A DNA stretch of 64,000 nt. Origin: Cytophaga hutchinsonii ATCC 33406 (GTDB lineage Bacteria; Bacteroidota; Bacteroidia; Cytophagales; Cytophagaceae). The notes under the pieces are model-generated. The model saw only the letters and a list, made by a program, of their open reading frames with translations. It was not told the DNA's origin and ran no database searches. The stretch covers positions 187,501-251,500 of the forward strand of contig NC_008255.1 of assembly GCF_000014145.1 (NCBI RefSeq), in the 5' to 3' direction. Of this stretch, positions 9,623 through 15,159 are shown piece after piece. Positions within the stretch are counted from its first letter, which is position 1, and every line of letters starts with the position of its first letter. Made by a program: the position numbers and the translations under genes.

Positions 9623-12600
9623 ATGTTAGACAGAATTATTCAGTTCTCCATTCAGAACAAACTGATTATTGGAGTACTGACCTTTGCATTAATTTGCTGG
9701 GGAATATGGTCTGCGACAAAATTACCTATTGACGCAGTGCCGGATATTACAAATAATCAAGTACAGATCATTACGCAAAGCCCTGCTTTAGCGGCACAGG
9801 AGGTGGAACGTTTAATAACGTTCCCTATTGAACTGGGTGTTGCAAGCATCCCTGAAATTCAGGAGGTTCGTTCTATTTCACGTTTTGGCTTATCGGTTAT
9901 TACCATTGTATTTAACGAGAATACCGATATATATTGGGCCCGGCAGCAAGTAGGCGAACGGTTAAAAGTTGCTGCAGCTGAAATACCTATAGGTGTGGGC
10001 GTTCCGGAGCTGGGCCCGGTATCTTCCGGTCTTGGGGAAATCTATCAATATGTTATATGTCCTGCAAAAGGGTATGAAGAAAAATATACTGACATGGAGT
10101 TACGATCCATTCAGGACTGGGTAATCAGAAGGCAGTTATTAGGAACGAAAGGTGTTGCAGATGTAAGTAGTTTTGGCGGGCATTTGAAACAATATGAAGT
10201 TTCAATAAACCCGGATAAACTGAGGAGCATGAATACTACGCTTGCAGAAGTATTTAACGCACTTGAAGCGAACAATCAAAATACCGGAGGTGCCTATATC
10301 GATAAAAATCCTCAGGCATGGTTCATCCGAACGGAAGGATTAACTAGTTCACTGGAAGATATTGGTAAAATTGTTATTAAAAATACTGCGGCAGGAATGC
10401 CCGTTTTAATCAGAGACGTTGCAACGGTGCAGTTCGGATCCGCTATTCGTTATGGTGCAATGACACACCGCGACGAAGGCGAAGCGGTAGGTGGAGTTGT
10501 GCTGATGCTGAAAGGAGAGAATTCAAATGCCGTTATCCGGAATGTAAAAGAAAAAATTGAGCAGATTAAAAAAACATTACCGAAAGGAGTTGTATTGGAA
10601 GCGTATCTGGATAGAACAACCCTGGTGAACAAAGCTATTCATACGGTATCTAAAAATTTAATAGAAGGTGCGTTGATTGTTGTTTTTGTATTGGTATTGC
10701 TGCTGGGCAATATACGTGCCGGATTAATTGTTGCTACGATGATTCCGTTGTGTATGCTGTTTGCAATTGCCATGATGAATCTTTTTGACGTATCCGGAAA
10801 TTTAATGTCTCTGGGAGCAGTTGATTTCGGCCTTATTGTAGATGGAGCCGTTATTATTGTTGAAGCTACATTACACCACATTGTCGGAAAAAAATATACG
10901 CATCGGTTATCTCAAAAGGAGATGGATACTGAAGTATATAATGCAGCATCTAAAATCAGGAATAGCGCAGCTTTCGGAGAAATCATTATTCTTATTGTTT
11001 ACCTGCCAATATTAGCGTTGGTGGGCATTGAAGGGAAAATGTTCCGGCCCATGGCACAAACAGTTTCCTTCGCAATTATCGGCGCATTTATTCTGTCTTT
11101 AACGTATGTACCAATGATGTCTGCACTCTTTCTAAGCAAACAGATGGCGCATAAGAAAAATATTTCAGACAAAATCATGAACTTTTTTCAGTCTGTATAT
11201 TCAAAAGTAATCCATAAGGTATTAGATCGAAAAATGCTGACATTGATTATTACAGGTGTATTGTTCATAGGAAGTATCTTTTTATTTATTCGAATGGGAG
11301 GAGAGTTTATTCCAACATTGGATGAAGGAGACTTTGCTGTAGAGACGCGTGTATTAATCGGTAGTTCCATGTCTAAAACAATTGACGTTTCAGTGAAAGC
11401 CGGTGCGGTACTGTTGCAAGAATTTCCGGAAGTAATAAATGTTGTCGGAAAAATAGGAACGAGTGAAATTCCTACGGATCCTATGCCTATGGAAGCGTGT
11501 GATTTAATCATTATACTAAAAGAAAAAGGAGAATGGACATCTGCAAATTCCAGAGAAGAACTTGCAAATAAAATGCAAGAAGCGCTTGAAGCTAAAATAC
11601 CTGGTGTAACATTCGGATTTCAACAGCCTATACAAATGCGCTTCAATGAACTGATGACAGGTGCTCGCCAGGATGTAGCATTAAAAATATATGGTGAAGA
11701 TCTGGACGAATTGACAAGATACGCGAAAGAAATAGGCGGCCTTATCGAACCGGTTGAAGGAGTTAAGGATTTATATATTGAAGAAGTAACAGGATTACCG
11801 CAAATTATTGTAACCTATAACATGGAACAAATGGCCCGGTATAGTTTAAGTGTGGAACAGGTTAATACTGCTATACGTTCAGCATTTGCCGGAGAAAAAG
11901 CAGGAATGATCTATGAAGGTGAAAAGCGTTATGATTTAGTTGTACGCTTAGACAGTACAAGTAGAAAACAAATAGAAGATGTTCGCAATTTATATGTAGC
12001 ATCTTATCAAGGTATTCAAATCCCCTTGCGTCAGGTGGCAGATATCGAATTTAAAAATGGCCCGAATCAAATTCAGCGTGATGATACCAAACGCAGAATT
12101 ATTGTGGCATTTAATACCAGAGGCAGAGATGTAGAAAGTATTGTAAATGAAATTCAAAATAAAATAAGTGAGCGTATAAAGTTTAAAACAGGATATCATG
12201 TTACTTATGGGGGACAGTTTAAAAATCTACAGGAAGCAAAGTCCAGATTGTCTGTTGCTGTACCGGTGGCATTGGTGTTAATATTTATATTGCTGTATTT
12301 TACATTTTCATCTATCAAACAAAGCCTACTCATCTATACGGCAATTCCCTTATCTGCCATAGGCGGAATCATTGCGTTATCAATCCGTGACATGCCTTTC
12401 AGTATTTCTGCCGGAGTAGGCTTTATTGCACTGTTTGGCGTTGCGGTATTAAATGGTATTGTTTTGATAGGAGAATTTAACCGATTAAAAAAAGAAGGTA
12501 TGACAGATGTATATCAGATTGTATTAGAAGGCACTTCTGTAAGGTTACGTCCGGTATTGATGACAGCCTTAGTTGCATCCCTGGGCTTTTTACCAATGGC

Positions 12601-13993
12601 ACTATCACACGGTTCCGGAGCAGAGGTTCAAAAACCGCTAGCAACGGTTGTTATAGGAGGTTTGATTTCTGCAACATTACTCACGCTATTGGTATTGCCA
12701 ATTTTATACATAATTGCAGAAAAAGGTTTGGTCAAAACACATATAAATAAACTGAGCACCTTGCTGATACTTGGCTTAATTTTTACATGTTTTCATTACA
12801 ACGCGTATGCACAGGATGTTGTAAAAGAAGTTTCGTTAGAAGAAGCGATTACTCTGGCAAAGCAAAACAATGCAGTCATTAAAGTTGCTGAACATACTCT
12901 TGAATATCATAACAAAATGAAAGGTACCGCTACCGAGTTTGGAAAGACCTCTGCAACATTAATGTATGGGCAGTATAATTCATTTTACAATGACAATAAT
13001 ATTACGGTTTCTCAAACAATACCATTCCCAACGGTAATGCATAAGCAAGCCCGGTATTATGGTGAAGCGATTAAAAGCGCAGAACTTAATAAGCATGCAT
13101 CAGAAAACGAATTGGTATATCAGGTAAGGCAGGTATATTATTTAATTGAATATGCCAAGTCGTTGCGAACATTATATATAAAGCAGGATAGTGTATACAC
13201 GGCTTTTTATACAGCCGCTGAATTGAGGTATAAAACAGGTGAAAGTAATATGCTTGAAAAAGCTACCGCAGAAAGTCAGCTGTATGAAGTCAGGCTACTG
13301 AAAAATCAGAATGAAAATGACATTTTAATCTTGCAGTCTAAATTAAAAACATTGTTGAACTCGGCAGAAGAAGTAACAACGACGCACGCGTATCAGGAAG
13401 ATGTAACGTTACTTTTATCGGATGATTCTATTGCTGTTGCAAATAACCCTGCTCTAGCCTATATGAAGCAGCAAGTAGCAGTGAATGCAGCCGCCATGCA
13501 AGTAGAGAAAAATAAGTTGATGCCTGATATTACAGTCGGATATTTTAACCAATCGTTAAGAGGTACTGTGAATTACAATGACGGCAGTATTACGGATGGC
13601 GCAACAAGATTTCAAGGCATCAGTGCAGGTATTGCCATACCAATCTGGGCTAAGCCGCAAGCAGATAGAATTAAGGCAACACAAGCCATGACAAATATCG
13701 CCAAAGCAAACAGCGAACTATATGAAAAAAATCTTCAGCGTCAATATACACAAGCGTATCAGGAATATTTAAAATATCAGACGAGTGTAGAGTTCTACAG
13801 ATCCAACGCACTGCCTACTGCGAAAATTATTTCAGACAATGCCTGGAAGAATTATCGTAGCGGTAATATCGGCTATCTGGAGTTATCTCAAGGCTTAAAC
13901 AGGGCATTGTCTATGCAGTTAAATTATTTGCATACACTTAGTTTGTATAATCAATCCATTATTACTATAGAATATTTAATCGGAAATAATTGA
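9623..13993 (+). CDS. czcA: CzcA-type heavy-metal RND pump fused to CzcC/TolC-like channel
   Basis: A 1456-residue protein in two parts. Residues 1 to about 1035 are a complete heavy-metal RND permease: TM1 at 13-32, porter loops, and in TM4 the motif DFGLIVDGAVIIVE with D401, D407 and E414. That D-D-E pattern is the CzcA (Zn/Co/Ni) type rather than the Cu/Ag CusA type. Residues from about 1063 to the end are an outer-membrane efflux protein (TolC/CzcC fold), with the start SLEEAITLAKQNN. The junction (about 1043-1063) reads like a signal peptide ending in AYAQ. The frame is open throughout. It imports no metal: the role is proton-driven export across both membranes, with CzcB as adaptor. Confidence 0.93.
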   Translation: MLDRIIQFSIQNKLIIGVLTFALICWGIWSATKLPIDAVPDITNNQVQIITQSPALAAQEVERLITFPIELGVASIPEIQEVRSISRFGLSVITIVFNENTDIYWARQQVGERLKVAAAEIPIGVGVPELGPVSSGLGEIYQYVICPAKGYEEKYTDMELRSIQDWVIRRQLLGTKGVADVSSFGGHLKQYEVSINPDKLRSMNTTLAEVFNALEANNQNTGGAYIDKNPQAWFIRTEGLTSSLEDIGKIVIKNTAAGMPVLIRDVATVQFGSAIRYGAMTHRDEGEAVGGVVLMLKGENSNAVIRNVKEKIEQIKKTLPKGVVLEAYLDRTTLVNKAIHTVSKNLIEGALIVVFVLVLLLGNIRAGLIVATMIPLCMLFAIAMMNLFDVSGNLMSLGAVDFGLIVDGAVIIVEATLHHIVGKKYTHRLSQKEMDTEVYNAASKIRNSAAFGEIIILIVYLPILALVGIEGKMFRPMAQTVSFAIIGAFILSLTYVPMMSALFLSKQMAHKKNISDKIMNFFQSVYSKVIHKVLDRKMLTLIITGVLFIGSIFLFIRMGGEFIPTLDEGDFAVETRVLIGSSMSKTIDVSVKAGAVLLQEFPEVINVVGKIGTSEIPTDPMPMEACDLIIILKEKGEWTSANSREELANKMQEALEAKIPGVTFGFQQPIQMRFNELMTGARQDVALKIYGEDLDELTRYAKEIGGLIEPVEGVKDLYIEEVTGLPQIIVTYNMEQMARYSLSVEQVNTAIRSAFAGEKAGMIYEGEKRYDLVVRLDSTSRKQIEDVRNLYVASYQGIQIPLRQVADIEFKNGPNQIQRDDTKRRIIVAFNTRGRDVESIVNEIQNKISERIKFKTGYHVTYGGQFKNLQEAKSRLSVAVPVALVLIFILLYFTFSSIKQSLLIYTAIPLSAIGGIIALSIRDMPFSISAGVGFIALFGVAVLNGIVLIGEFNRLKKEGMTDVYQIVLEGTSVRLRPVLMTALVASLGFLPMALSHGSGAEVQKPLATVVIGGLISATLLTLLVLPILYIIAEKGLVKTHINKLSTLLILGLIFTCFHYNAYAQDVVKEVSLEEAITLAKQNNAVIKVAEHTLEYHNKMKGTATEFGKTSATLMYGQYNSFYNDNNITVSQTIPFPTVMHKQARYYGEAIKSAELNKHASENELVYQVRQVYYLIEYAKSLRTLYIKQDSVYTAFYTAAELRYKTGESNMLEKATAESQLYEVRLLKNQNENDILILQSKLKTLLNSAEEVTTTHAYQEDVTLLLSDDSIAVANNPALAYMKQQVAVNAAAMQVEKNKLMPDITVGYFNQSLRGTVNYNDGSITDGATRFQGISAGIAIPIWAKPQADRIKATQAMTNIAKANSELYEKNLQRQYTQAYQEYLKYQTSVEFYRSNALPTAKIISDNAWKNYRSGNIGYLELSQGLNRALSMQLNYLHTLSLYNQSIITIEYLIGNN

Positions 13994-14001
13994 AAACGAT
14001 C

Positions 14002-15159
14002 ATGAAAGCAATATATATAATAAGTCTTTTGACAGCTGCCGCATTAAGTGCGTGCAGTTTGAAACCACAGGAAGAAGAAATTCAAAAAGACAGCATTGCC
14101 GATTTAGCTGTGACACTATCAGCTGCACAGCTTAAGCATATACATTTATCAACTACCAAAATAGAAAAGAAAAAATTAGGAGCATCAATAGAAGTAAATG
14201 GAATGCTGGATGTGCCTCCTCAAAATCTTATTACGGTGTCTGCATTATTGGGTGGTTTTATTAAAACAACAAGTATGCTTCAAGGTATTCACGTAAAGAA
14301 AGGTGAGGTAATTGCACAAATTCAGAATCCGGAGTTTATAACCATTCAACAGAATTATTTAGAAAATAAAAGCAGACTTGGTTATTTAGAGCAGGAATAT
14401 AAAAGACAGGAAGAGCTTTCGAAAGAAAATGTTGCAGCAGCTAAAACATTTCAGCAAGCTACTGCAGACTATCATTCGGCAGTGGCAACGAACGGTGCAT
14501 TAAAAGAAAAATTAAAAATGATTGGCATTAATCCGGATGGGCTTAATCAAAACAATATCAAAAGCATTGTAAATATTTATTCGCCGATAAATGGTTATGT
14601 AACCGTTGTGAATATTAACATCGGTTCGTACTTAAACCCGCAGGATATCATTTGTGAAATTGTAGATACCGACCACTTGCATGCTGAACTGACGGTTTTT
14701 GAAAAGGATATTACCAAAGTGAAAGTTGGACAGAAAGTAGTTTTTAAAATTGTGAATGGAAATGATGCGGATCGATTCGCACATGTGTATTTAATTAATC
14801 ACAAAATATCTGCAGACAGAACCGTACGTGTACATGCTCACCTGGATAAAGATGATCCCACATTAATTCCTAATATGTACCTGAAGGCGTTTATTCAGGT
14901 AGATGAATACGAAACACTGGCGGTACCAAGTAAAGCATTGGTTGAATTTGACGGGGCGAGCTATCTTTTTGTAGAAAGCGTTAGCAATGGTGAAGCTCAT
15001 ACATACAAGGCGGTAGAAGTAAAGAAAGGAATTTCAGAAGGAAACTTTACTGCCATTGAATTCCTTTCAGAAGGTGATACTTTTAAAGATAAAAATGTTG
15101 TTGTCGATGGATCGTATGATCTGCTCGCAAAAATGCGAAATGTAGAAGAAGAGGAGTAA
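14002..15159 (+). CDS. czcB: Efflux RND periplasmic adaptor (CzcB-like lipoprotein)
   Basis: A 385-residue membrane-fusion protein that links the CzcA permease to the outer-membrane channel. The N-terminus carries a lipoprotein signal with lipobox LSAC at about residues 15-18. A lipoyl-like half (GGFIKTTSMLQGIHVKKGEVIAQI region), an alpha-helical hairpin around residues 110-160, the second lipoyl half (YSPINGYVTVVNINIGSYL) and beta-barrel domains follow in normal order. The ATG at 14002 is chosen; a TTG at 13990 overlaps the czcA stop and would add four residues. It is the last gene of the efflux operon, followed by a terminator. Confidence 0.92.
   Translation: MKAIYIISLLTAAALSACSLKPQEEEIQKDSIADLAVTLSAAQLKHIHLSTTKIEKKKLGASIEVNGMLDVPPQNLITVSALLGGFIKTTSMLQGIHVKKGEVIAQIQNPEFITIQQNYLENKSRLGYLEQEYKRQEELSKENVAAAKTFQQATADYHSAVATNGALKEKLKMIGINPDGLNQNNIKSIVNIYSPINGYVTVVNINIGSYLNPQDIICEIVDTDHLHAELTVFEKDITKVKVGQKVVFKIVNGNDADRFAHVYLINHKISADRTVRVHAHLDKDDPTLIPNMYLKAFIQVDEYETLAVPSKALVEFDGASYLFVESVSNGEAHTYKAVEVKKGISEGNFTAIEFLSEGDTFKDKNVVVDGSYDLLAKMRNVEEEE

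Follow-up and report, generated by a model that had tools for sequence, protein, structure and literature searches.

We describe here a fused gene of Cytophaga hutchinsonii ATCC 33406 that joins a heavy-metal pump of the resistance-nodulation-division (RND) family to a TolC-like outer-membrane channel, and that probably encodes a polyprotein cut at the junction of the two. The gene lies in a stretch of 64,000 nucleotides (positions 187,501 to 251,500 of NC_008255.1, forward strand), which is called the window below and whose own numbering is used throughout (Table 1). The frame (9623-13993, forward strand) translates into 1456 residues from an ATG, with no internal stop and a computed mass of 161.5 kDa. 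TIGR00914, the CusA/CzcA heavy-metal RND family, spans residues 1-1033 with 1157.6 bits against a curated cut-off of 701.45, PF00873 covers residues 5-1032, and transmembrane helix 12 occupies residues 1013-1033 in the structure model. PF02321 matches two stretches of the C-terminal part (100.7 bits, cut-off 22), and the channel proper, Q1064-N1456, comprises 393 residues and 44.5 kDa. The adaptor frame (13990-15159; TIGR01730, 114.3 bits, cut-off 94.9) follows immediately, with an ATG at 14002 and, overlapping the fused gene's stop, an alternative TTG start at 13990; its start contains LSAC, which we take to be lipoprotein-like. An adaptor relative is present at 121/121 and 69/70 fused loci of the two genome sets described below, and the fused gene belongs to a three-part efflux system in which the adaptor is encoded alongside pump and channel.

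Table 1. Coordinates of the fused gene, its parts and its neighbours in the window.
Feature	Coordinates	Strand	Remarks
Small His-rich protein, 132 aa	9150..9548	+	Upstream of the fused gene; no family match
Pump, CzcA-type RND permease	9623..12721	+	Residues 1-1033, to the end of transmembrane helix 12
Basic linker KGLVKTHINK	12722..12751	+	Residues 1034-1043; pump tail and n-region; predicted cytoplasmic
Internal signal peptide, h- and c-region	12743..12811	+	Residues 1041-1063, A-Y-A end; model and sequence
Predicted signal peptidase I cut A1063/Q1064	12809..12814	+	Between bases 12811 and 12812; conservation
Channel, mature outer-membrane factor	12812..13993	+	Residues 1064-1456, stop included; PF02321, fold model
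Adaptor, CzcB-type, HlyD family	14002..15159	+	Next gene downstream; TIGR01730, PF16576, PF13437

A sequence-only reading of this DNA had described the frame as a complete RND permease joined to a complete TolC-like channel, to which the family matches above and the fold match below agree, and had named a sequencing error hiding a stop and a start at the junction as the alternative. The same genome, one contig of 4,433,218 bases, has another fusion built in the same way (G000:C1:1743651-1748012; 69% identical over residues 1-1455), so that a hidden stop and start are not credible; together with the many fused loci of other genomes, this paralogue excludes an error of sequencing or assembly. 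The genomes sampled were those of Bacteroidota and their nearest relatives. The last 434 residues, used as a channel query, matched 230 of the 395 Bacteroidota genomes searched. From the matches listed, 120 long-frame loci were fetched, and 119 of them had the helix-12 landmark in a frame of 1200 residues or more; the other, L152, was dropped because it has no 1200-residue frame and lies at a contig end. With the window gene and its paralogue these make a set of 121 fused proteins from 21 families and 52 genera (counted by code), and the frame is open across the junction in every one. Numbers of fused genomes taken from the matches listed are minimum values: at least 119 loci, from 90 other genomes. 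In a second collection the best 80 loci comprised 70 fused, 7 unfused and 3 without a landmark-bearing frame. Fused pump-channel genes are common in Bacteroidota, and the sequence-only reading was right that other members of the phylum have them. Among 5000 plasmid matches retained, at least 43 plasmid records also match over 80% or more of the query; of the 30 plasmid loci among the matches listed, 26 are annotated, every one as a pump, and the other 4 carry no annotated feature. One locus counted as unfused, L184, has a frame that passes helix 12 and a signal ending in Gln, enters the channel and stops 232 residues past helix 12, with the match continuing downstream; this may reflect an interruption of the channel part or faulty assembly of a metagenome bin.

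The junction reads LPILYIIAEKGLVKTHINKLSTLLILGLIFTCFHYNAYA/QDVVKEVSLEEA, where the slash marks the candidate site A1061-Y-A1063/Q1064. In the model of junction and channel (mean predicted local distance difference test score 91.1, with 64 to 80 in the junction blocks), a helix at 1041-1058 is followed by a coil at 1059-1067 holding A1063/Q1064, and then by the channel fold. The hydrophobic core of the signal falls below the 19-residue hydropathy criterion that detects the pump helices. Between helix 12 and this core the fused proteins have a median of 5 Lys or Arg vs 1 Asp or Glu, and the stretch is net positive in 117/121, which matches the expectation for the cytoplasmic side. Sequence and model together contain every element of a signal peptidase I substrate of the Q-rule type, namely n-, h- and c-regions, small residues at -3 and -1, and Gln at +1. 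The buried signal peptide, with the Gln of AYAQ just after its end, is found where the sequence-only reading had placed it, and the structure prediction which that reading had proposed as a check puts the site in coil between the helix and the channel fold. Signal peptidase I is encoded twice in the same genome, by neighbouring genes (L267:761-2257 and L267:2351-3259). The first contains YIKRCIAIPGD and the second YISRCIAIAGD at the same place; taking the Lys of the former to be catalytic, the second copy seems to have lost it.

Conservation singles out the residue after the predicted cut. In an alignment of 70 rows (the window protein and 69 named fused relatives of the second collection, with L181 left out for an X), the sole column conserved above 80% between Y1029 at the end of helix 12 and A1079 in the channel is Q1064, with Gln in 69/70 rows; the position of A1063 holds Ala in 54/70. 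Mean pairwise identity in these rows is 65.6% in helix 12, 17.1% in linker and signal, 97.1% at Q1064, 13.8% at residues 1065-1069 and 31.4% in the channel. A separate alignment of 40 of the 121 fused rows (the window and 39 others) likewise left only the Ala-Gln pair nearly invariant there. When the site is picked by -3 and -1 alone, Gln occupies +1 in 91/121. The pattern [AVSTGICL]x[AGSC]Q occurs within 60 residues past helix 12 in 110/121 fused proteins, vs a mean of 47.9 in shuffles (maximum 63 in 1000) and 31.8 in random blocks of the same proteins (maximum 48); [AVSTGICLN]x[AGS]Q follows the hydrophobic core within 18 residues in 109/121, vs 21/1183 after the other cores of the pumps, and [AGST]Q follows it in 117/121 (shuffle mean 66.4, maximum 83). 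By class, [AGS]Q is present in 94/95 proteins of the window's class (92/93 without its own two copies) and in 22/26 elsewhere in the phylum, a count that carries no null of its own.

Unfused relatives have the same design in two genes. Our unfused sample comprises 19 loci in which the channel frame is short, taken from those that the channel search listed. In 16 of them (L159-L170, L172-L174 and L177) the pump nests within the fused clade and is followed by the channel and then the adaptor; the pumps of the remaining three are more distant. These operons share families, gene order and signal with the fused loci and differ in that a stop and a start separate pump from channel. Gln follows the end of the signal peptide in 16 of the 17 unfused channel starts inspected, as judged by eye. 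The fused L110 and the unfused L163 are sisters with support of 100 in both trees, and the internal MKFS...QAQENITY of the former matches the N-terminal MKFS...SAQENITY of the latter from Met through QENITY. The same holds for L082 with L161 and L162 (support 99-100) and for L113 and L128 with L170 (86-89). The pump and channel genes of L159 and L160 share an ATGA in which the stop of one overlaps the start of the other, and those of L161 overlap more, resembling translationally coupled genes; from these overlaps, one small change would part the fused from the unfused state. The fused or unfused label has to change 10 times over 142 rows, where starred branches force 8 of the changes, and 8 times (7 forced) over 47 chosen rows, and a single origin of the unfused genes was rejected on these counts. 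Because the fused genes occupy the deeper branches, an old fusion with several later splits is the simplest history; the trees carry long-branch warnings, and the direction is unproven.

From these observations we infer, with a probability of about 0.88, that the gene encodes a bacterial polyprotein for a divalent-metal exporter, split by signal peptidase I at A1063/Q1064. In the RND family the C-terminus lies in the cytoplasm after helix 12. The pump would insert, with helix 12 leaving the chain in the cytoplasm, and the basic linker and short hydrophobic segment would act as an internal Sec signal peptide, bringing the remaining chain to the periplasm. Signal peptidase I would cleave after A1063, and the pump would remain in the inner membrane, keeping the signal as one more short segment there. 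Once free, the channel, its Gln probably cyclised, would trimerise and reach the outer membrane, and the adaptor from the next gene would connect it to the pump. A single chain would also supply pump and channel at 1:1, as a trimer-to-trimer assembly requires. There is a precedent in FbcH, the cytochrome b/c1 precursor of Bradyrhizobium, in which one gene encodes a polytopic membrane protein followed by an internal signal peptide and signal peptidase splits the product. The window gene is likewise single, with an internal signal after a polytopic pump and a split that is predicted; both products of FbcH are inner-membrane proteins, whereas here one would be an outer-membrane channel.

The residue exposed by most signal peptidase I substrates of Bacteroidetes is Gln (on average 71% per species), which becomes pyroglutamate (PMC5837995), and substrates have small residues at -3 and -1 with Gln at +1 (PMC5837995, PMC10653852). 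Reanalysed mass spectra contained N-terminal pyroglutamate in five species, including 7 proteins of C. hutchinsonii (PMC5837995), and in P. gingivalis substituting the Gln reduced the amount of selected substrates (PMC10653852). The window site resembles those of known substrates in residues -3, -1 and +1; it differs in that its signal is internal, past twelve membrane helices, and not N-terminal, and in that its cleavage is predicted from sequence. The authors of the rule state that inner-membrane proteins were untested for it (PMC5837995). The sequence-only reading had held that the chain must be cut. Its facts were right, and the conserved Gln, the unfused sister operons and the predicted TolC-like start of the channel now make the cut very probable.

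An extension of this model, which we consider unlikely, gives the fusion a role beyond stoichiometry and makes the uncut chain an assembly intermediate: three pump subunits, each still attached to its channel part, would trimerise and hold three channel chains in the periplasm under the outer membrane until a late cut. If this were true, each channel would be built opposite its own pump, and the polyprotein would template a two-membrane machine, kept through most of the history of the phylum and repeatedly given up.

Several points weigh against a signal peptidase I cut at A1063/Q1064. By the rule of -3 and -1 alone, 30/121 fused proteins have no Gln at +1, one of them no site at all, and several of these 30 have a Gln site a few residues off. 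The bare -3/-1 pattern without Gln is uninformative (121/121 observed, 120.9 in shuffles), so the signal resides in the Gln, and alignment programs may draw Gln residues into a single column. Five of the 121 have no [AGS]Q in the 75-residue stretch: L054, L071, L117 and L144, outside the window's class, and L148 as the exception inside it. That they fall mostly outside this class would agree with a weaker Q-rule there. As to the cyclase, no plant-type glutaminyl cyclase (PF05096) was found in the genome, and the animal type falls in PF04389, of which the genome has four matches. No protein-level evidence was seen for the window protein or for any fused homologue.

The exceptions to the rule would favour a cut by another protease or at another place: 30/121 lack Gln at +1 by the simple rule and L054, L071, L117 and L144 lack it altogether. 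The conserved Gln and Ala of the others point to one place, however, and an A-x-A end is still visible by eye in three of the four (AEA/C in L071, AHA/D in L117 and ASA/T in L144). We consider a different cut highly improbable.

The fold of the channel bears on whether a cut is needed. A sequence search of solved structures with the channel found no match at E 0.01, and a fold search was done instead. The modelled channel has four barrel strands and two helices of 69 residues; it matched CusC with Z 27.9 over 378 residues and TolC (1ek9) with Z 25.9, and 26 solved outer-membrane factor entries with Z 24.0 to 27.9. By its PF02321 match and the TolC fold of the model, the C-terminal part is an outer-membrane factor (TolC/OEP). 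In the structure alignment model residue 59 (residue 1070 of the fused protein) aligns with residue 1 of mature TolC, and the predicted cut lies 6 residues ahead of it. TolC is about 135 A long, and its N-terminal end, which lies at the equatorial domain like that of CusC, is remote from the inner membrane (PMC3017539).

With a spacer of 6 residues and an N-terminal end so placed, an uncut chain would probably not fit an assembled pump. It might nevertheless function whole, with the channel part in or near the inner membrane; no experiment speaks against this, and a fixed tether would hold pump and channel together. Against it, the signal-peptidase site with its Gln is retained while the surroundings drift, for which an uncut chain would offer no evident reason, and the unfused operons of the same clade work with separate parts. 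We give such an uncut protein very little credence.

Alternatively, translation might start inside the linker and yield the channel on its own, the long chain being a by-product. Met is present in 44/121 linkers, that of L110, L113 and L128 sits at the start Met of the unfused relative, and residues 1036 and 1047 of the window protein are encoded by TTG. The 44 linkers compare with 42.7 expected from the Met content of whole proteins, however; the window linker has TTG only, and the frame is open through the junction in 121/121. With no ATG, GTG or TTG in 56/121 linkers, that of the paralogue L002 among them, an internal start is ruled out as the general mechanism and can hardly account for the window gene, while a minor contribution in some species is possible.

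Among solved pumps the nearest to the window pump is ZneA (4k0e; E 6e-203), followed by CusA (about 6e-177). The exporters CzcCBA, ZneCBA and CusCBA resemble the window system in having all three parts, a pump near that of ZneA and a channel fold like that of CusC; they differ in that the window has pump and channel as one gene. The helix-4 motif is DFGLIVDG in the window, DFGIIVDG in ZneA and VGAMVDA in CusA. At the CusA Met positions that we take to be the copper-binding triad, the window has Glu, Ala and Glu in place of the Met residues that define the Cu(I)/Ag(I) subtype of CusA. Because of these residues and the ZneA-like helix-4 motif, a divalent metal (such as zinc, cobalt or cadmium) appears likelier than Cu(I) or Ag(I) as the substrate.

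The small His-rich protein encoded upstream matched no Pfam and no NCBIfam family. Its relatives lie upstream of the fused gene at 28/121 and 14/70 loci, and also upstream of the unfused operons L164 and L177. It is a probable operon partner, possibly one that binds or senses metal. A scan for promoters and terminators gave 20 promoter-like sites vs 25.1 expected and was uninformative.

In the open literature searched, which covered few subscription papers, we found no description of the fusion or of its processing, in line with the sequence-only reading, which knew of no demonstration of how such fusions are processed. The fusion is unmentioned in the available parts of PMC8277102, PMC4827864 and PMC11960050, and those of three C. 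hutchinsonii proteomics papers (PMC6247017, PMC8564354, PMC5891637) do not mention efflux, RND or TolC. Each domain and the Q-rule were already known; less known is a widespread exporter made as a polyprotein with products in two membranes. Confirmation of the cut would mean that Bacteroidota build one of their common metal exporters as a polyprotein with parts for two membranes, and that annotations naming the products of about 1450 residues as pumps overlook a channel in each of these genes. The system would then serve to test how efficiently signal peptidase I cuts downstream of twelve membrane helices, whether the N-terminal Gln at such a site becomes cyclised, and how bacteria equalise the numbers of pump and channel.

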